Assembly (NCBI GenBank): GCA_021927905.1
Contig: BLLK01000046.1
Coordinates: forward strand, 124,001 to 188,000
Origin: Chaetoceros tenuissimus
Lineage: Eukaryota > Bacillariophyta > Thalassiosirophyceae > Chaetocerotales > Chaetocerotaceae
Reading direction: 5' to 3'
DNA length: 64,000 nucleotides
Below, one piece after another: positions 24,363 through 57,651 of the stretch; positions within the stretch are counted from its first letter, which is position 1; every line of letters starts with the position of its first letter. Under the pieces are notes generated by a model, which ran no database searches, was not told the origin of the DNA, and saw only the letters and a list, made by a program, of their open reading frames with translations. The position numbers were made by a program, and so were the translations under genes.

Positions 24363-25707
24363 TTAATTGAATGACTCCTCGTCGCTGTACAATCTATCAC
24401 GAACTTCTTTAAATTCTCCCCCCATTAGCTCCATTATCTCTGTCCAAAGAGGTTTTGCACGTTTAGCCCCTAATCTGTCTCTGCTTTTAAATAAAACTTC
24501 TTTCGATACGGATGCAACGAACCAAGATCCATCTCGAATTTCTTTTTCAAGCTATAAAACACGTCGTAGGTAAGTAATGATGAGAATTTTCAACAGTCCA
24601 CATTTCAAAAGGATGCAACAAAAATCTTACCTGCATTGGAAGCCATCTAGTGCTTTGAACAAAGAATTTAAAGTCAAAACCTGACATGGGTTTTTCTAGA
24701 GAAGGATCAGTCATAGCTTCTTGAGCTTGAACTGGATCGCCTCCATGATACAATCCGTCCTCTGTGATTTGCTTTGCACCTTCTACATTTGGACAAACAT
24801 GGATCATATCCAACCCATTAATGCTACTTTTTTGATCAGATCCAGAAGAGGTACCTCCAAACCAAAGAGGCTGAATCATGAATGCACCGAGATTTGGAGG
24901 CGGGGAATCATTTGTTCCATCTTCATTATCCAATTGCTGGTTCTCAAGGTCTCCGATTAAATATCCTGTTCTACGATTCAACAACAATGCATGGCATCCT
25001 TTCAATGGATGCCTATCCAACAAAATCAAAACTGGTAACAAATCTGCTCTTCTGTCTGGTCCTAATTCAGGGGGAGGTGGAAGAGTAAGACCAAACTTGG
25101 ACAACAATGCAAGAGAAGGTGGTTTGCCATCTGAAAAATCGTCACAGAACTTTGCTGGATTCGCAATAAGACAAACACCGCTCTCTAAAGCCTTTGATAC
25201 ATCTGAAATATCTATTGGTTCAGCCCAATCAGTAGGAGGCAAATCAGCATCTGAACTTTTGGTAGTTGCAAAGCTGATGAGCTGATCTACTGATGAGAGA
25301 TTTGAGATGTCAGACTCCTCAACGAGTTCAGGGTAATCATCCTCGTCTTCTTCGGTTTCAGCGTCTTTTTCAGTCTCTTCAGGAATACCCATCATTGCTT
25401 TGAAATTTGCAACTGCACTATCATCAATATCAATGTATTCGTCATCATCCTCATCGTCTTCGTCATCATCTTCGTCGTCTCCAAAGTCATTATATTCAAA
25501 ACCTGCTGCTAACTCAGTAGCTATTACTCTATCATTTCTATTTGCATGCAAATCTCGTTGCAACTGAAAGAGTATATTTTCATTGACAACCTCTTGACTT
25601 GGAAAGCAGTCAGCCGTAGAACTAAAAGATGAATGTAGTTGTGTTGCTGCTGGAACGAAAGCAACTGTTTGTAAAACTAACAGACTTGAAATTAGTACCG
25701 ATAGCAT
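24363..25707 (-). CDS. Plastid-targeted YqgE/AlgH (UPF0301) family protein
   Basis: Exons 25707-24631 and 24551-24363 (79-bp GT-AG intron) give 421 residues. MLSVLISSLLVLQTVAFVPA is a signal peptide ending in AFVP, a diatom plastid motif. An acidic Asp/Glu-rich stretch follows (about 75-135). From about residue 155 the YqgE fold is visible: GVCLIANPAKF, HPLKGCHALLLNRRTGYLIGD as separate blocks, PLWFGGTSSG, MIHVCPN and, across the splice, STRWLPMQ then LEKEIRDGSWFVA, the W...QL..E...G.W signature. Plant and algal relatives are plastid proteins of unknown biochemical role. Without the second exon the domain would lose its final helix, so the intron is well supported. An in-frame upstream non-ATG extension was not used. 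Confidence 0.85.
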
Positions 25708-27027: not shown

Positions 27028-30000
27028 CTATATCTTTTCTGTATCCTCATTCCCAACTCTAGAAGACGCTAAGGCGGAAGCTCGAGCCAAGTTGATGATT
27101 GCTCTGAGAATCCTCCTTTTCTTTATCATTCGTTCATTGAAAACATCGTCTAAAGTTCTTCCGCTCTCAGTATCTGTAGTTTCCAACTCGATTTCTCCCT
27201 TTAGTATTGTCAGCCGTTTAGCTAAAGCTGTGGCAGCGTCAATCACGTGGACTTTGCCATTTTCGTTGACACTCAATTCCTTGAGACAAGGGTCGTCTAA
27301 TATTTTGTCAGTTGAATGAAAGTCTTTCACACCTAAACCTAGAGGAGGCTCAAGAACCTGTAGTAAAGTCTTCACCTCTTCTGCCTGGATGAACCAAGTA
27401 GCTTCGGGATCAAATCTACTCCACGCTGCTGTGAACGCAGCTAAATCCTCTGCCTTCAATATTTCACCCTCGTTACTAGATTCAAATGCTTCAAGGACAA
27501 TTCCAACAAATAAATTCATTACCACGTAGGACATCAACAACGTGAAGGAATAAAAGTAGATGAAGCCAAAGAGTCCTGCTCCACATCCATTGACATGCCT
27601 GCATTCTGGCAGATCCGCTTCAGAAATGCACCAGGGGGAGTCATAGACTGGACTCTCACTGCAATTTGGTTGGTTAACCATCATACTTCGCATGAAACCA
27701 TTCCAGTTCTCACCGGTTGAAAATCGAAGAAGTAGTAACATTGCATTTCCAAAAGATCGAAAGTTTGCATGATCGTCAATTTCCTCGTTGTTTGGAAGAA
27801 ACGAGAAAGACTGAACCCCTACTACTGCATACATGAAGAAGAGTAGCAGCATTAGGAATCCAATGTTTGCAATACTTGGTACTGACATGATCAAAGTGTT
27901 GAATAGTGTCCTCAATTTCTTCAAGTTCCTCACTAGACGAAAGAGTCTACAAATGCGAGCTAAGCGAATGACTCCTACAACCGATGATGCCGACGAAATA
28001 AATATATTGATTACAAGACCAAAATTGGTTCCGCAAACTACTAGTAAGTCAAATATATTCCACCTGTCGTCGAAAAATCTCGCAGAGAGTGCAATCAGCT
28101 TTAGTACAATCTCAATTGTAAATATTGTAGCAAAAGTATAATTGAGCGAAGAAATTATAAATTGTTTTTCTTCCGAGTCTCCAAAGGAGGTCATCGCTGT
28201 TACCAAAGCAGAGCCAATTATACATGCCGAGATGAACGGTTCGAAGTGTTGGTTTGAATGAGGCATAACAAAGTCGAAGCATTTTGCACGAAAACTATTT
28301 TCTGGTCGATCAAGTTTCCTCAATGGTCGAATTTTCATGATAAATTGTTGTGTTCGTGCCCAGTTCTTCTGACCTACAATTCAAGATTTTGTTTACTACG
28401 TGAGATGATCAAATAAGAACAACAAGGAAACGTCTAAACATTCCTACCTTCTGTCATCAAGGTTCGGCCAGTGCTTGTCCTTATCTTATTGAAATTGTCA
28501 ATAGTCACTCCGACAAAAAGTTCTAATACAAAAAATGAACCAAAAATAAGAAAGGAAATGAAAAAGATTGCCCACATAGGGTTGCTGTTTTGTCTAGGCT
28601 GCATCTCAATTCCTCGTTGGTCTACAGCAGCAAACATGACATCAGTCCAGCCCTCGGTTGTCGAGATCTCAAATAAGGTAGCAATGCCATTAATTATATT
28701 GTCAAAATTTTGAGGAATTGTCAGTTTCCACTCCCCTGGAGCGAGGCAATTGCAGACTTCCATTGATGTTGGTATTGTATCGTCAGACCATGCATTTACA
28801 TTGCAACCCTCGATATCAGGCAAAAACAATTCTCTAAATTGCTGTGGTGCATCTCCCCAACGTGTCGGTTTTACCAAGAAGTCCAATTGCTCCTCACTCA
28901 AATCGTCGAACCTTGGCCCAGAGCAATGATAAAATGTTCCTTTGAGAAAGTTGACAGCAAAAGAAGCAAAGATGAGAAAAAATAGCCCACACAAAACACC
29001 AACATTTGCGACGGAAGGAAAGGAAAGAAGCAAGGCATCGACAACTATCTTCAACTCAGGAAACTTGTTCACCATCCGTAGAGGACGTAGAACTCTTAGA
29101 GTCCTTAAAGACTTCAATGCACTTCCAGACCATACTTTTGCTAAACTCAAAACAGAAATGATTACAATGAAAAAATCCAATACATTCCAAGCACTCCTCA
29201 AATATGCTTTACTTTCGGAAAAGAGTCCATATGCTAATATTTTGACAATAGCCTCACCGACAAATACCATGGTAAAGACGTAATCACAAACTTGCAGCGC
29301 CTTGATAAAAAAAGAGCTTGGGTCCAAGAGAGGATTGTCTAAAGCAAGTAACAGACTACTAATCACAATCAAGACAGTTATGACAACGTCAAACCACTTT
29401 TTCTCGACAATCTTCAAACAAAACTTTCGAAACCTATTGTCTTTGCCAATTTTTGCCCATAGAAGCTGTATTGTGGATGGCCGTTTCACATCTCTCTTTT
29501 TTGTCTGTGAATCCTCCCTCGATTCCAAGGCAAGCTCAAGTTTCTGCTCATCCACTAGATCTCCATTCTCCTCAAAGTTTTTCAACAAGATTGCTAGAAA
29601 CAAATTCATGACAATGAACACTCCTATAATAATCAAGGAAATGATGTAGAATGTAGCTACCATCCCTTTTGCTTTCCAGCAATCATACATGATGGTGTTC
29701 CAGTTTTCACCCGTGAGAATTTGAAAGACTGTAACCATGGACCAATAGAAACTATCAAAATTAGCTCTGGGCACGTACGCTTCTTCATAACCTTCATCAG
29801 AAAGTTTCAAGGCTACATTGTTCATATTTGAAAATCTAAGTCTATTTGCCAAGATCTGCATGCCGATGAGGCTATAAATAAACATGAATAGTAACAACAA
29901 GGCTGCAAAGTTCCAGATTTCCGAAATGGTAGACGCAATTGTTCTCAACAAGGACTGAAGAGACTTCCACTTCTTGGCCATTTTGAAGATTCGAAACAAT

Positions 30001-31840
30001 CGCAGCGATCTCAAAACAGAAAATGCACTACTACCAGAAGTAGCATGTGGTACACATAGAATGAATACTAGCTCAATCAGTGAAATGGCTCCAACAATTC
30101 CATCAAAGCACCTGAAACCATCGCTTTGATGGTTTGTACATTTTATGTCAGAGATACTGCTTCGAGAACGGAAATTACATTTTTTGACTAGACTTACCTC
30201 CAATAAGCACGGGGACCATAAACAATATTGCATACGATGACATCACAAATAAAAATAAATGTGAAACAAGTGTTGAAAGTCTCAAGCAGCTGTGCATGCT
30301 TGTCCTTGATACCATAGTGATCAAGACTCAAAACTATCGTATTCAGTACGATGCAAACCATGATGAAGATAGAGTGGTAATCTATTTTCTTTAGTCGCTG
30401 CTCTGGTGGTGAAGAGTTTTCTTGTTCATCAACCGTATTGCTAAAATGTCCACTATTACCCCAACTCTGTTCATCGTTCAGATCTTCCTCATTCTGGATT
30501 TCATCGAGCGACTTTGTAATGACAGCTAGAACAATATTGAGGACAATGTATCCACAAATGACAACTTGTAAGGCAAAGATAAGTATAGCAGGAGTCACCA
30601 TCCACGCATCCATAATTTGATAGAGTAAATCAGTCCAACCTTCCAGAGTAATGACTTGGAACGAAGTCAAGAAAGCCGAAAGGAAGGTGTCGTAATTCGT
30701 GAATCCATAATTCAAACTCTCTATGAATGTGCCCGACCTCATTCGAGGATAGCCATAAGGAATATGACTATCAATAAATCTTGGATTCCCAAAACGATCA
30801 TAGTTCGACCCGCAAGTTCTCTCTTGTAGTATTTGAGTCGACTGGTCCATGTACAAACAGTGATGATTTCCTTTCCCACTCAGACTACATATTCTCTCAT
30901 CAGCATCATCAATTGGCCAAATGCAATCCATTGGTCCATATTGAAACCAAGGCGAAGTACTTTGTGTCCAGGATGGATCATCGTTGTCGAAAGATGAACA
31001 TCGATACTCTTCGGGATTTACAATAACTTTGTTCAGATATTCACTCCAGCAGATATCATTCACATCGGTGCAATTTTCTGGCATTTTGATTGGATAGGGA
31101 GTCAATCTACATCTAGCATGTAGTAGTCCCTTCCAAAACATCATACCAGTGAGGCTGAAACCAAAAATTAAAAACCCAAGTAAAAGCATGACATTTGAAA
31201 GATCCTTGTACGATTTAACCAAAGCCCCAACTATTTTTCTTAGACCTGGTAACTTGACAAGTGACCTCAGTGGTCTAAGCACTCTAAAGCTCCGCAATGC
31301 CGACAAATTTGGCACAATGGGTATCACAGAAATTACACTGAAAGAAATGAAGGAATGAAGGAATGAATAAGCTACTAGGGAAAGAAAAGAAACAACATTT
31401 TAGTCCAAAAGTCCTTACCTCAAAACGACAATGACGAAATCAAAAATATTCAAGCCATTTCTTAGATATGCATTCTGCCCTCTGAAAAGACCAAATGCAA
31501 AAATCTTTACGAAACACTCGAGTATAAACACTACAGCAAAGAATACCTCAGTTATTTCAAAGATATTGTTCCTCCACGACTTTGTTGGATCAGGCTGGTA
31601 ATTATCGTCAATGAATCGATAGTCTACACATGCCATGGAGATGGCATTCAGAACAATCATGAAGATGATAAAGGTCTCAAAGCGAGGATCTGACACAAGC
31701 TGTATGCATTTCCTTCGAAACGTCGATTCGATGGGAATAAAACCAAGGCTTTTCCTGGTGTACTTGACCTCGATTCCTTCCTCATCTGTGCATCTTTCAG
31801 TATTCTTACAGTCATTGTGCTCACTGGGATGCACTCTCAT
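27028..31840 (-). CDS. Four-domain voltage-gated calcium channel, Cav-type (EEEE filter)
   Basis: Four exons, 31840-31419, 31337-30198, 30111-28448 and 28373-27028, with GT-AG introns of 81, 86 and 74 bp, give about 1523 residues. There are four homologous six-helix repeats. The S4 sensors are SFRVLRPLRSLVKL, SVLRSLRLFRIFKM, SLRTLRVLRPLRMV and RLARICRLFRLVRNLKKLR. The pore loops read TLEGW, TGENW, TTEGW and TGENW (filter Glu at about residues 373, 655, 1007 and 1297), the EEEE ring of calcium-selective Cav channels, unlike the sodium DEKA ring. The junction of exons 3 and 4 restores QKNWARTQQF ahead of domain IV, a conserved linker. After IVS6, AAWSRFDPEATWFIQ is an EF-like proximal C-terminus as in animal Cav and Nav. 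It should carry depolarisation-driven calcium entry at the plasma membrane. The start is the first ATG. Confidence 0.93.
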
Positions 31841-43351: not shown

Positions 43352-43889
43352 GGTTGGGACTGTTGAAAAAGTTTATTGAAAGCTCAAAATAAAAAAGTGT
43401 CAAGGTGACTTCCTCGCAGTCACAGTGCTTTTTTGTGGGTGCAATTTACTAAGACTATACGCATATTTACAATTATTTTTTTACATACCTCCATGACATT
43501 TGTAAAAACGGAGATCGAGAAAGGCGATCGAGGTGAACGAAGTATTTGTTTTTGACTAAGAAGAAGACAGATAAAAGTTTAGACGAATTTTAATTGTATA
43601 ACATTACTATACTTTAACTTCAAAAATCCTATTTTTGTAATCTCTGAGAAATGACAACAATCAATGTTTGCATAATTTCAAAGCAGCATTGAGACAAGAA
43701 CTGAACAAGAGGTAGTTGATGGACCAAGTAACAGGAGATGGTGAAGAGACTATTTGAAAAGAAGGAAAAATGGAGTTCTTCTAGTAAACAAAAATTGAAT
43801 TAAAACATGACACAGGCAATAAGCCCAATCCCTTCTTGGATGAACATTGAAGAAAGAAGTACCTTCTCATATATCAGCAAACGAATTGT
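43352..43889. other. Intergenic region beside the inverted duplication
   Basis: 538 bp of AT-rich sequence from the calmodulin-like start codon to the left boundary of the inverted duplication. No gene, RNA or repeat is seen here. Confidence 0.4.
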
Positions 43890-44054
43890 ACAAAGTCAAT
43901 GCAATCTCAAATAATTTCAATTTTTATATTTTTATTTATTTATTATTCTCGTGATATACAAATTGAGGATGCTGCTCTTACATATACAAATTTGGAAAGC
44001 GCCTCTACTCAATCCACGATCGCATTCAACACATGAAACTTAGATATCTATCGC

Positions 44055-44942
44055 CTATGATCTGTCGTATCCCTTTCCTTTGGAGCTAGATCCCTTCATG
44101 GACTTTCCTCCCTTTCCTTTGCCTCCCTTGCTCTTCGGACTCTTGGAAGACTTCGGACTCTTGGATGACTTCGTAGACTTGCTTCCCTTGGAGCTAGATG
44201 AGCTTCCCTTGCTCTTAGAGCTCTTGGAGCTCTTCGGACTCTTGGAAGACTTTGGACTCTTGGATGATTTCATAGACTTGCTTCCCTTGGAAGAGCTGCC
44301 CTTGGAGCTAGATGAGCTTCCCTTGCCCTTGGAGCTAGATGAAGTTTCTTCGAGTTGTCTTCTTTCTGGCTCATCTGCGCTTCCCTTTCCTTTGGAGCTA
44401 GATCCCTTCATGGACTTTCCTCCCTTTCCTTTGCCTCCCTTTCCTTTTCCTCCTTTACTCTTCGGACTCTTGGATGACTTTGGACTCTTGGAGCTCTTCG
44501 GACTCTTGGATGACTTCATTGACTTGCTTCCCTTGGAAGAGCTGCCCTTGGAGCTAGATGAGCTTCCCTTGCCCTTGGATGATGAAGATTCTTCGAGTTG
44601 TCTTGTTTCTGGTTCGTCTGCGCTTCCCTTTCCTTTGGAGCTAGAGGATCCCTTCATTGACTTTCCTCCCTTTCCTTTGCCTCCCTTTCCTTTTCCTCCC
44701 TTACTCTTCGGACTCTTGGATGACTTTGGACTCTTTGAAGACTTTGGACTCTTGGATGATTTCATAGACTTGCTTCCCTTGGAAGAGCTGCCCTTGGAGC
44801 TAGATGAGCTTCCCTTGCCCTTGGATGAAGAGTCAAGATGACCGTCAAGATGACGAGCATATTCAGCAGATACTGGAGTAGTGATGGCAAGAAGTGCCAA
44901 ACATGCAAAGATGAGGAGAGCGATACTTCTAGTGATGTTCAT
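44055..44942 (-). CDS. Silaffin-like secreted Lys/Ser/Gly-rich protein, left copy
   Basis: 295 residues, single exon. A signal peptide (SIALLIFACLALLAITTPVSA) is followed by YARHL-D, an RXL-type processing site. The rest is repetitive: SSSSKGSSSKGSKSMK, runs of KSSKSPKSS, then GGKGKGGKGKGGKSMKGS, each period closing with SADEPE(T/R)RQLEE, again containing an RQL processing site. Such spacing of Lys pairs separated by small residues, with Ser for phosphorylation, is characteristic of silaffins, which carry polyamine-modified lysines and promote silica precipitation in the silica deposition vesicle. Three repeat periods are present. Composition, signal peptide and RXL sites are seen directly; the silica role is inferred from family knowledge. 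Confidence 0.82.
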   Translation of the reverse strand: MNITRSIALLIFACLALLAITTPVSAEYARHLDGHLDSSSKGKGSSSSSKGSSSKGSKSMKSSKSPKSSKSPKSSKSPKSKGGKGKGGKGKGGKSMKGSSSSKGKGSADEPETRQLEESSSSKGKGSSSSSKGSSSKGSKSMKSSKSPKSSKSPKSSKSPKSKGGKGKGGKGKGGKSMKGSSSKGKGSADEPERRQLEETSSSSKGKGSSSSSKGSSSKGSKSMKSSKSPKSSKSPKSSKSSKSKGSSSSSKGSKSTKSSKSPKSSKSPKSKGGKGKGGKSMKGSSSKGKGYDRS

Positions 44943-45597
44943 GTTATATGTAGTAAATTAATCACTTCAAACAAATGATTGCGTGTAATTGGTGAGAGTG
45001 TAATTATGAGTTTGAAAGAAAAAAGTAAAGTGAGCGGCAAGAAGGAAAGCACTGTTTGGCACAGAGATGGTATGGATTTTATTGAGAAGTCTGTGGGACC
45101 AATCCAACGGGAAAATTCTACTATTCTCATTGTCATTATACGACAATAGGACTTTTATCATTCATCCTTCATTTCACACATCTCATTTCATTGTCAGTTC
45201 TCTCAATGGTCTTTTGATGCTGTCCGCGAAATAAAATGCATTCAATCTTTTAAAGTGATTTGCTTTTGAAATAAAAATACATAGATGCGGTATATTCACT
45301 TTATTATTGTTGAAAATGTGAGATGAAAATTTAGATCTAAATTGATGTAAAATTATAATAAAAAAGTCTCTCTTAAAGATGAAGAAAGTTCGTTGGATTG
45401 GTCCCACAGACTTCTCAATAAAATCCATACCATCTCTGTGCCAAACAGTGTTTTCCTTCCTGCCGCTCACTTTACTTTTTTCTTTCAAACTCATTAATTA
45501 TACATCTCACGCGAGGGCTATTTAATACCAAGAAATCACTTGCATTTCTCAGTTTTTCTATATCATCTACTGCAGTGATTAATTTACTACATATAAC

Positions 45598-46407
45598 ATG
45601 AACATCGCTAGAAGTATCGCTCTCCTCATCTTTGCATGTTTGGCACTTCTTGCCATCACTACTCCAGTATCTGCTGAATATGCTCGTCATCTTGACGGTC
45701 ATCTTGACTCTTCATCCAAGGGCAAGGGAAGCTCATCTAGCTCCAAGGGCAGCTCTTCCAAGGGAAGCAAGTCTATGAAATCATCCAAGAGTCCAAAGTC
45801 TTCAAAGAGTCCTAAGAGCTCCAAGAGTCCGAAGAGCAAGGGAGGCAAAGGAAAGGGAGGCAAAGGAAAGGGAGGAAAGTCAATGAAGGGATCCTCTAGC
45901 TCCAAAGGAAAGGGAAGCGCAGATGAGCCAGAAAGACAACTCGACAACTCGGGCAAGGGAAGCTCATCTAGCTCCATCTTCCAAGGGAAGCAAGTCCAAG
46001 AGGCAAGAGGAAGCTCAAAGGAAAGGGAGGAAAGTCTGAAGGGATCTAGCTCCAAAGGAAAGGGAAGCGCAGATGAGCCAGAAAGAAGACAACTCGAAGA
46101 AACTTCATCTAGCTCCAAGGGCAAGGGAAGCTCATCTAGCTCCAAGGGAAGCTCTTCCAAGGGAAGCAAGTCTATGAAATCATCCAAGAGTCCAAAGTCA
46201 TCCAAGAGTCCGAAGAGCTCCAAGAGCTCTAAGAGCAAGGGAAGCTCATCTAGCTCCAAGGGAAGCTCTTCCAAGGGAAGCAAGTCTACGAAGTCATCCA
46301 AGAGTCCGAAGTCTTCCAAGAGTCCGAAGAGCAAGGGAGGCAAAGGAAAGGGAGGAAAGTCCATGAAGGGATCTAGCTCCAAAGGAAAGGGATACGACAG
46401 ATCATAG
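45598..46407 (+). CDS. Silaffin-like secreted Lys/Ser/Gly-rich protein, right copy
   Basis: 269 residues, single exon, head-to-head with the left copy. The signal peptide and first 100 residues are nearly identical (ITRS against IARS at position 3-6). The middle period is shortened and contains an anomalous stretch (IFQGKQVQEARGSSKEREES) where the usual Ser/Lys repeat is read in a shifted frame before the normal frame returns at LKGSSSKGKGSADEPE. The last period has an extra SSSKGSSSKGSKS-type unit relative to the left copy. Function is inferred as for the left copy: a silica-associated protein processed after RXL sites. A TATTTAATA element lies about 70 bp upstream (near 45520) and is missing from the left copy. 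Confidence 0.82.
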   Translation: MNIARSIALLIFACLALLAITTPVSAEYARHLDGHLDSSSKGKGSSSSSKGSSSKGSKSMKSSKSPKSSKSPKSSKSPKSKGGKGKGGKGKGGKSMKGSSSSKGKGSADEPERQLDNSGKGSSSSSIFQGKQVQEARGSSKEREESLKGSSSKGKGSADEPERRQLEETSSSSKGKGSSSSSKGSSSKGSKSMKSSKSPKSSKSPKSSKSSKSKGSSSSSKGSSSKGSKSTKSSKSPKSSKSPKSKGGKGKGGKSMKGSSSKGKGYDRS

Positions 46408-46660
46408 GCGATAGATATCTAAGTTTCATGTGTTGAATGCGATCGTGGATTGAGTAGAGGCGCCTTCCAAATTTGTATATGTAAGAGCAGCATCCTCAAT
46501 TTGTATATCACGAGAGTAAATAAATAAATAAAAATATAAAAATAGAAATTATTTGAAATTGTTGCATTTTCTTTGTACCATTTGAGTTCGTTTGTATGAA
46601 TTTCAATTCTCAAATTTGTAACTTGAAATTCTTCCCTCTAAGTAAGTCTACGAATTTTTC

Positions 46661-49600
46661 TCACTTTCTCCGTAGGTTACGCTTCATTGATTTGTTCTTT
46701 GATAATGTTTTTGGATCTCCTACTTCGACAAAATCAATGAGTTCTACTTTGCTCTCTTTGCCAAAGTTAGGTAAAGTTTGTTTCAGTTGTTGTGTTCCAC
46801 ATAGATGTGATATTGTTTGGCACCAAAGCAAGGAACCTTCATTAGTATCAAAGATATATGGATTGGTTAATCTTTTCTCCTTTCTTTCTTCCGCCAACAA
46901 ATCAACAAGGAATCTAACACAGAGAGTTCCTTGCGGCGAATGTAGAACAAGATCATCCTCCATGACTTTACCCCAGCGATCGTTTGTAATAGGTATGAAC
47001 TTGGATTTACTTTCGCTGTCATCAGTCCAAAATTCACAGTGGAAATCGATCCTTGTTGCTTCAGCTTTTTCGATATCATTCTTTTTCTCTTTTTTCGTCA
47101 AGATATGTTTAGTACCAGGAGGCATACGAACAACCTTGATCTCAGTTATGTCACTGATAGGAAGTCTTCCTAAAACTTCTCTACCTACAACAACATCTGA
47201 AAGACTGATACCCTTTCCCCCTTTTTGCTGCCTCAGCTTCTTTTTCAACTCTACAATTTTACTATCAATTTGATCATCCCATAAACCACTAATAGGTTTA
47301 GGACTTAGCCAGACAATTTCGAACTTCGTCATGACAACATCCACCTCTTCCCAATTATCAAGTAGCGGCAACCACTTACACTGACATCTTCTCATACTCC
47401 TTACCAGCGCAGCTGCCGGACGTACAAAGTTGTACTCGTTATCATCATTAATTTTTCCACCTATCGAACTTTCACTGATACTAATTTGCCTTTCTACAAA
47501 AGAGTGCTTTCTCATGGATGACGGTGTCATAATGGAATCATTACAGACATCTGGGGCAAATGAAATTCTCCTGGAGCTATCCTTGTGGTCTCGAGTGAGG
47601 CTTTGCTTCGGCATTGACTCAATTCCAAGCATTGCTTCGAGGAGTAGTCCACTAAACATACCGTGATCCTTCACAATATCAGGATATTTTACGATAGCAG
47701 CAGCCCAGAGTTCAGCGATAGTCCCCTTTTCATTCTCAAAGTTCAGTTTTTGAATATCATGATTATTGATAGCCTTTTCTTCTAGTCTTTTTTTTTCAAT
47801 CGTGTGGTCCAGTTCTGATAAATGAGAGGATTTGCATCCACAAGTCAGTTTCTTCGCTACTGAGAATCTCAGTAACCGACAAGCAATCAAAGCACACCAT
47901 GGCTCCAAAGAACCAACTCCTCCACACAATCTTGCCCCAAAAGCGGGGCAACAGTGATGGTATATATCACAAGTACCATAATTGCTATCATAAGATTCTG
48001 CTAAAAATCTATAAGCAGATAATGTGGTTTTCCCTTCACATTCACAACATCTCTTCACCTCTGCACGAAGAAAGATAGCAAGGCATGAAACGGCGAGGAT
48101 CACATCCAACATGCCAGCAACAACCATAAAAGAACTCTCATCTACATCCCTGTATACAAAAGCCTGAGTTGCACCTTCAATAATGAATCCAAGAAACCAA
48201 ACAACCACAATCCAAAAAGTTGCTGGTCGGCTCACAAAGTCCCAAGTATTCTGGTTATCTAATCAAGAGCGCAAGTTAGATAAAATGCTATTTAGAAAAA
48301 TAAAGCATTTTCCATTAATATTCTCACCTTCAATCGCACATGTATCTAATAGTATCAATTCAATTCGTACTGCTATCATGAAAAATGCAATCATTGTGCC
48401 AAAAACGGCAGATGCTTGTCTATATTTTTTGTTTACATATAGTCCACGCAAAGATTCCGCAAGATCAAACCTTCCACTCGGTTCTTCGCATTCAAAATCG
48501 ATAATATCGGGGATTCCAGACGAATGAATACTTCTTTCAGATGATACACTGCCATCAGATTCGACGGAAGCTTCTTCTTCATCACTCTCACCGTCTTCAG
48601 CGATTGGAGTGATAAATTTTTTCTTTCGTAATGACATAGGGATTTCTTCCTTCGTTTGAGTTTTATGAGGGGGACAAAACATTTTTGGTGCAAGGGAGAA
48701 ACATGGTTCTTGGGCAGCGGTTGAGCCAGAAGAACTTTGATCATCACCAATTTGTGCTGCTGTGTTGACATCGGTAATTGGTACAGACATTTCAGACTGC
48801 ATCAAAAACACACCAGTGGAGACAGATTTCTGTCTTCTAGATCTTCGTGGTTCTATCACAGGTACTTCTCTCTCTATTTGACTTTCATCTCTCTCTAAGT
48901 CAGTTCTAAGATTTTCAGGGGTTCCTGAAACCATTCTCATGGCAGCTACACCATCAGATATCGACTTGTGTCGTGTTCGTTGGCGAGTCTCGATTCCATA
49001 CTTTAAATCAGGCAAATCTTTGGCATCCTTTTTCACAAATTCTGATAGTTTCGTTAGCTGTTCATCCTGATTCATATAATCTTTTCCCTCTCTCCCTCCT
49101 GAAATGTCATGACCTGTTGGAGATTTCATGAGTAAAACTCCAGTAGATGCAGACTTCTGTCTTTTCTGTCTCTTTTTGCCGTCTTGACCTCTTACATTAT
49201 GACGACTGGACAAAGGAAGAGTTGTTTTTCCAGGCAAAGGGGTATCTTCTCCTTGTAGAGCTTTTGCTGCAACTGCTGACGTTCCAGAAAACATTCGCAT
49301 AGCAGCGACTCCGTCAGAAATAGACTTGTGCCTTGGTCTTGCTCTTTGTCGTCCACTGGATTTGGTAAAATCACCAGAAAGCTGCGGGAGATCTGATGAT
49401 TCTTTCTTCACTAATGCACTCAGTTTTGTCAGTTTGATGCTCTGAGAACTCATATTGGTCCTCGCCGAAGTATCTAGGTCAAAATCATCCTGTACCTGCT
49501 TTGGCTTTAGATGCCTATCCGAAGAACCAGTCATTATTTTCTGGAAAAACTTCAATTTTGTTATATGATCAAGGGCATGACTTTTCTTAGCTTCTTTCAT

Positions 49601-56553: not shown

Positions 56554-57651
56554 TTACTCTGCCTTCATACTGGAAGCTTCATCCCATAGACCTTGGAATA
56601 GAGCAGTAGACAAATATCTCTCTCCAAAGGAAGGAATCACAAGAACAATTCTCTTTCCAGCATTTTCTGGACGACTTCCTACTCTGATTGCCGCAGTTAC
56701 TGCTGCTCCACTAGAAATTCCGCAAAAGATTCCTTCCTCGGTTGCCATTCTTCTAGCCATAGCCATTGCATCTTCTCCAGATACTTGAACAACTTCATCA
56801 ATAAGGGAAGTATCAGCGTTTCCAGGAATGAAACCTGCTCCAATTCCTTGAATCTTGTGAGGACCTGGCTTTCCTCCGCTTAATACTGCACTCTCCTCTG
56901 GCTCAACTGCAACAAGCTGTAATTCTGGGTTCAATGGCTTCAAGTATTGCCCGCATCCAGTGATAGTTCCTCCAGTTCCAACTCCTCCGATCAAGATATC
57001 AACCTTTCCATCGGTATCAGCCCAAATCTCTGGTCCAGTGGTTTCACGATGAATCTTGGGATTATCTGGATTGTTGAACTGCTGAAGAAGCATACCATCT
57101 TCACCCAAACTTTCTACAAGTTCTTCTGCTTTCGCAATAGCCCCTCCCATTCCTTTCGCAGCTGGGGTGAGAACAAGATCTGCTCCAAAAGCCTTGAGGA
57201 GAACACGACGCTCCATAGACATGGACTCAGGCATAGTGAGGATAAGCTTGTATCCCTTGGATGCTGCTACCATAGCAAGTCCGATTCCAGTGTTACCTGA
57301 GGTTGGCTCTACAAGAGTAGTCTTTCCAGGTGCAATATCTCCACGCTTTTCAGCTTCAGTAATCATGGAAAGAGCAATACGATCCTTCACGGAATTTGCT
57401 GGATTGGAGGATTCCAACTTAGCAACAATCTCACAGTTGCACCCTTCTACTACTCTGTTGAGCTTTACCATAGGAGTGTTTCCAATAAGTTCAAGAACAT
57501 TATCTGCGATCTTTGGCTTTTCTGCAAAGAGAGCAGAGGTGGAAACTGCTGCCGCCTGTGTGGTGGAAACAGCCTTTTGTGGCGCAAAAGCAGCAGACTG
57601 AGAAAATAGACTTGCAGCTGAAAGGATAAGTGCGGTAGTACTGAACTTCAT
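56554..57651 (-). CDS. O-acetylserine (thiol)lyase / cysteine synthase, plastid
   Basis: 365 residues, single exon. It makes L-cysteine from O-acetylserine and sulfide with pyridoxal phosphate. The signal peptide [21 protein letters not shown] ends with the classic diatom SAAFAP plastid motif, followed by a Ser/Thr/Ala-rich transit peptide. The catalytic core is complete: [23 protein letters not shown] (PLP-bearing Lys), [12 protein letters not shown] (substrate loop), [11 protein letters not shown] (phosphate loop) and [12 protein letters not shown]. Length agrees with a mature enzyme of about 320 residues plus presequence. The gene is well conserved, so the family call is firm; plastid location follows from the motif. 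Confidence 0.95.

Follow-up and report, generated by a model that had tools for sequence, protein, structure and literature searches.

In the window, the 64,000-nucleotide stretch of Chaetoceros tenuissimus DNA analysed here, the full transcription unit of a putatively secreted, silaffin-like precursor was probably duplicated head-to-head fairly recently, with the encoded protein remaining under constraint. The inverted duplication itself is real, as established by an inverted-repeat search and gapped alignment: two arms surround a unique spacer (Table 1), and each arm is made up of upstream DNA, one complete open reading frame (ORF) and a 3′ flank. This is the arrangement of ~1.2 kb arms around a 281-bp spacer that the original prediction had described. 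The duplicated unit extends from upstream DNA to just beyond the AATAAA signals. The two genes, L in the left arm and R in the right arm, are transcribed divergently from start codons 655 bp apart.

Table 1 Coordinates of the inverted duplication and its parts within the window
Feature	Position	Strand	Details
Left arm	43902..45109	-	1208 bp; inverted-repeat search, gapped alignment
3′ flank of L	43902..44054	-	Three overlapping AATAAA near end
L gene, silaffin-like precursor	44055..44942	-	295 aa; RXL at residues 30, 114, 195; three lysine-rich modules
L module 2 block	44387..44605	-	219 nt, in frame
Diverged proximal upstream block, L	44966..45005	-	40 nt, 24–63 nt before ATG
Distal upstream segment of L	45006..45109	-	104 nt; 2 differences from R
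Unique spacer	45110..45390	.	281 bp; inverted similarity into spacer not significant (P = 0.087, uncorrected)
Right arm	45391..46561	+	1171 bp; inverted-repeat search, gapped alignment
Distal upstream segment of R	45391..45494	+	104 nt; 2 differences from L
Diverged proximal upstream block, R	45495..45574	+	80 nt, 24–103 nt before ATG
R gene, silaffin-like precursor	45598..46407	+	269 aa; RXL at residues 30, 113, 164
R module 2 block, including linker after second RXL	45935..46060	+	126 nt (219 nt in L)
3′ flank of R	46408..46561	+	Three overlapping AATAAA near end

A single gapped local alignment spans 45109–43867 of L and 45391–46599 of R, and the longest 25 of 101 inverted pairs contain collinear inverted pieces of 364, 264, 230 and 104 nt with 97–99% complementarity. 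The 36 bases that open the arm are found at two places in the window (≤3 mismatches) and in none of 100 shuffles. When the window was compared with itself (blastn, E ≤ 1e-5), every printed pair started within 43800–46700. The fold of DNA 45000–45500 (z = −20.6) is a restatement of the inverted arms.

The surrounding genes are eukaryotic: Pfam matches identify an Ion_trans cation channel, bromodomain and BET proteins, and RCC1 repeats with EF-hands. Three ORFs at 27028–31189 (- strand) are seemingly pieces of a multi-domain cation channel, and the one of them that was scanned (28434–30233) matches Ion_trans. Two ORFs among the 42 listed start, by eye, with what we take to be heterokont-type plastid presequences: one at 56554–57651 (- strand; SAAFAP), a PALP enzyme by Pfam, and one at 24547–25707 (- strand; VAFVPA), with no Pfam match. 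Such presequences agree with a diatom-like host.

The signal-peptide-like start, Lys/Ser repeats and RXL sites expected from the original prediction are present in the proteins of both arms. Each N terminus is hydrophobic (hydropathy peak 3.17 over 11 residues) and ends in VSA; judged by hydropathy alone it is a putative signal peptide, for which we assumed a cut after residue 26. Serine makes up 34–35% and lysine 20–23% of the full proteins, rising with this assumed cut to 37.9% and 25.7% in mature L and to 36.6% and 22.6% in mature R. Each mature protein carries three RXL sites, located shortly after the assumed cut and between modules, compared with means of 0.07 and 0.14 in shuffled sequences, which reached three in 0 of 5,000 cases. 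The modules are ~80–100 aa long, longer than the repeat units of Sil1p from Cylindrotheca fusiformis, and each ends in RQL; R has two full lysine-rich modules and a shortened one. In both proteins, cleavage at RXL is predicted to release a neutral 6-residue propeptide ahead of the module peptides. These would be three cationic peptides of 84, 81 and 98 aa (net +17, +18 and +25) from L, and peptides of 83 aa (+17) and 103 aa (+26) plus a 51-aa remnant (+2) from R.

The K[SG][SG]K motif occurs 24 times in L and 17 times in R, and is absent from the six other ORFs among the top 8 of 65 by Ser+Lys content. Overlapping pentalysine windows with Lys at both ends number 32 in L and 22 in R. Lys/Ser repeats can arise through composition alone. 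Two antisense ORFs, at 44080–44841 (+ strand, 253 aa) and 45699–46382 (- strand, 227 aa), span both genes; we rejected them as genes, taking them to mirror the codon usage of the repeats. Since such long antisense frames stay open in repeats, an open frame is a weak indication that the sequence is coding.

Silaffins in the strict sense are isolated from biosilica and carry modified lysines and phosphoserines. As described for Thalassiosira pseudonana, the screen for silaffin-like proteins (SFLPs) sought a signal peptide with repeated KXXK motifs (X = S or G) 1–6 residues apart, and reported a pentalysine cluster, five non-consecutive Lys in 12–14 residues, to be important for silica targeting (PMC5501833). 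A second report likewise assigns a targeting role in silaffins to pentalysine clusters (PMC9650480). The SFLPs of that species resemble L and R in their signal peptide, KXXK motifs with S or G, and RXL; all of the new KXXK proteins have a canonical cleavage site, and 8 of the 10 new ones have pentalysine clusters, a likeness drawn on motifs (PMC5501833). By eye, KXXK spacing in L and R fits the range of 1–6 residues (KSSKSPKSSK, for example, has 2 residues between motifs). Judged from their sequences, L and R thus fit the published diatom criteria for silaffin-like proteins (KXXK, pentalysine, RXL), in agreement with the identity first proposed.

The proposal that biosilica precursors are in general processed at RXL (PMC4557024) is described as still awaiting proof (PMC5647440); the motif is also found in silicanin homologues from Parmales (PMC10328945) and is thus not confined to diatoms. 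In Sil1p the repeat units likewise end in Arg-Leu motifs (RRIL, RRNL), which are lost from the mature peptides (PMC4557024); the modules of L and R differ in ending in RQL. Cingulins share KXXK-rich stretches with L and R, but alternate them with W/Y-rich regions (PMC4557024); with no Trp (W 0%) and 0.7% Tyr, L and R fall outside the definition. Silacidins, highly acidic phosphopeptides according to a reference title, were likewise rejected as a match, as the module peptides of L and R carry +17 to +26, with one at +2. Two related silaffins in one genome, as here, are known from T. pseudonana (tpSil1 and tpSil2; PMC3806462), where the TpSIL1 and TpSIL2 clusters are reported to respond in opposite ways to silicon shifts (PMC5501833). 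Among the literature matches listed, we recognised no description of an inverted silaffin-type pair in titles and abstract openings. Because silaffin-like proteins differ greatly from one species to another, they are hard to trace. To judge from the sequences, L and R form a real, new pair of silaffin-like paralogues in mirror-image order, one that the original prediction had for the most part read correctly.

An alternative is that L and R are secreted Lys/Ser/Gly repeat proteins with a role apart from silica, such as adhesion or a place in the extracellular matrix. Their function is read from motifs, and homologue searches in viral and prokaryote contigs, PDB and Pfam were negative. Matches to the sequence pattern in viral contigs (6) and prokaryote contigs (93) gave none that was confirmed, a low-complexity protein being a poor query; PDB gave 0 matches at E ≤ 1; and the sole Pfam match, DUF2937 (E about 0.07), is below the cut-off and lies on the signal region. 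However, RXL sites between lysine-rich modules, together with pentalysine clusters, constitute the pattern described in the biosilica-protein literature cited above, and we consider a non-silica role rather improbable.

Alignment of the arms reveals low divergence in a well-aligned core that includes coding and noncoding DNA: 17 substitutions in 949 columns (~1.8%), a count that omits the proximal upstream block (40 columns), the module 2 block (126 columns) and the outer 3′ flank (80 columns). Within this core, differences amount to 2/104 columns in the distal upstream segment, 0/23 immediately before the ATG, 9/337 in the signal peptide and module 1 (9/360 with those 23 nt included), 2/332 and a 15-nt gap in the stretch running from module 3 up to the stop, and 4/153 and a 1-nt gap in the 3′ flank. 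The 15-nt gap corresponds to an extra in-frame unit in R module 3 (46198–46298, + strand) that L does not have. The claim that the arms are near reverse complements, noncoding flanks included, therefore holds for most segments but not for two blocks. In the proximal upstream block, 8/40 columns differ (Fisher 2e-6 against the core) and five gaps totalling 40 nt are all missing from L; in the module 2 block, 6/126 columns differ and eight gaps totalling 93 nt are all missing from R.

Beyond the arms, 21/80 columns differ in the outer 3′ flank. Extension of similarity was assessed by comparison with 300 AT-rich pairs drawn at random from the window, giving four P values, all uncorrected. One of these concerns the spacer (Table 1). 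Similarity continues past the outer 3′ edge (P = 0.007). At the proximal block it carries on inward from the distal side (P = 0.027) but not significantly from the ATG side (P = 0.45). Compared with base shuffles, the proximal block retains weak residual similarity between the arms (z = 3.3).

Codons were compared over codons 1–111 and over the 114 alignment codons from the end of module 2 to the stop, skipping the 15-nt gap; the module 2 block, with the linker that follows the second RXL, lies outside this comparison. Nine codons differ; eight are synonymous, and one replaces an amino acid, at position 4 within the signal region (pS 0.052, pN 0.0063; Fisher 4.8e-4 for the two compared blocks). 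One serine codon differs at three bases at once, TCA versus AGC. Because the codon differences are mostly synonymous, the encoded protein looks constrained, but the result does not discriminate between L and R as the constrained copy.

The upstream regions bear on the suggestion that the genes share a central promoter. The 104-bp distal segment is present once in each arm, and the block nearer the genes differs most; with the DNA from 24 nt before each ATG so different, a single symmetric shared promoter is not shown. A TATTTAA stretch, read by eye, is present in the proximal block of R and absent from that of L. L and R may respond in common through the shared distal segment, and, since the proximal block is the most diverged, a different output from the two genes seems as plausible as coordinated dosage. 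A bacterial promoter scan, which uses a model ill suited to a eukaryote, gave 1 site against 3.3 expected. Short ORFs heading toward the spacer are visible by eye in both distal segments (45006–45109 and 45391–45494). The ORF at 45183–45494 (- strand) was rejected as a gene: by eye, both inter-arm differences alter a residue, and hence there is no sign of coding.

The other diverged block changes the R protein, from which most of the middle lysine-rich module is missing, a point that the original prediction had not raised. Without the 93 nt, the frame of R module 2 is shifted and then restored, yielding a near-neutral middle peptide. R reads IFQGKQVQEARGSSKEREESLKG there, for the most part out of the frame of L (about 21–23 residues), and the frame of L is regained ahead of the following RXL. 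Around the second RXL of R, a Thr is missing before the site and Asp-Asn replaces Glu-Glu after it. The history of the modules can be partly read from pairwise comparisons. R3 matches its counterpart L3 best (0.7% different) and for L1 the closest module is R1 (3.5%), whereas modules within an arm (L1–L3 and R1–R3) differ by 4.6–6.1%. Against the expectation that counterparts match best, R1 and R2 differ in 0/139 columns, with ten gaps; R2 nevertheless scores highest against L2 whichever of two gap costs is used (194.4 versus 132.4–175.6, and 106 versus 80.5–90.5), although the stricter cost gives 22 substitutions. As the R2 alignments shift with gap cost, the number of separate deletions is uncertain. 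The module sequences suggest that amplification of the modules probably preceded duplication of the arms, with R module 2 ambiguous.

A fairly recent inverted duplication explains the core. The original prediction had named recent duplication or gene conversion; the low divergence is borne out and does not separate the two origins. It is conceivable, though we lean against it, that an older inverted duplication was homogenised by gene conversion between the arms, leaving the proximal block and the flanks outside the conversion tracts, a history that differs from a recent duplication and overlaps with it on function. Such a history would account for a proximal block far more diverged than the core and yet weakly similar, for similarity that fades at the outer 3′ edge instead of stopping, and for the TCA/AGC serine codon, which module exchange could yield. 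However, the core carries no significant trace of conversion in its longest identical run (248 versus 183 expected, P = 0.10) or in heterogeneity among segments (p = 0.23), the ATG side of the proximal block shows no significant extension of similarity, and that block could also have arisen through a single replacement, or a cluster of indels, in one of the arms.

Two further explanations would make part of the locus spurious or non-functional. An assembly artefact (a fold-back read, a misplaced haplotig or a local consensus error in R module 2) could be suspected because the module 2 gaps cluster within a repeat and because a core difference of ~1.8% resembles allelic levels. A fold-back origin of the arms is ruled out by the unique spacer and the different flanks, the latter with distinct ORFs, and the many inter-arm substitutions and gaps are also unlike a fold-back; a consensus error agrees poorly with gaps of 2–30 nt, unlike homopolymer slips, and with a net loss that keeps the frame. 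An artefact is therefore very unlikely, though for module 2 taken by itself an error is conceivable. Decay of R into a pseudogene is unlikely too, if less so: the deleted and frame-shifted part of module 2 would fit decay, and frame restoration by chance, at about one in three by our reasoning, weakens the argument from an intact frame, but R keeps its start, stop, signal region, three RXL sites and modules 1 and 3, and the codon differences are mostly synonymous, although they do not tell which copy is constrained.

Under the recent duplication that we favour, the event would have copied the upstream region, the gene and its poly(A)-like signals in inverted, head-to-head orientation. The signal peptide would direct the precursor to the ER and then to the silica deposition vesicle, and RXL cleavage would free Lys/Ser-rich peptides, three from L, and two plus the remnant from R, whose modified lysines and phosphoserines may help to target or organise silica. 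L and R would probably answer similar signals through their common distal upstream sequence, and level or timing of expression may differ with the differing proximal DNA. A far more speculative proposal, in which we place little confidence, is that the mirror pair diversifies wall peptides, with conversion keeping modules 1 and 3 uniform, and the middle module of R free to vary; if true, frame-shifting deletions would give a new near-neutral middle peptide under a separate core promoter. A fresh paralogue pair in which one copy is intact and the other altered in a single module would offer a natural experiment on the role of a module, and, with its matched upstream DNA, would inform how wall-protein repertoires grow.
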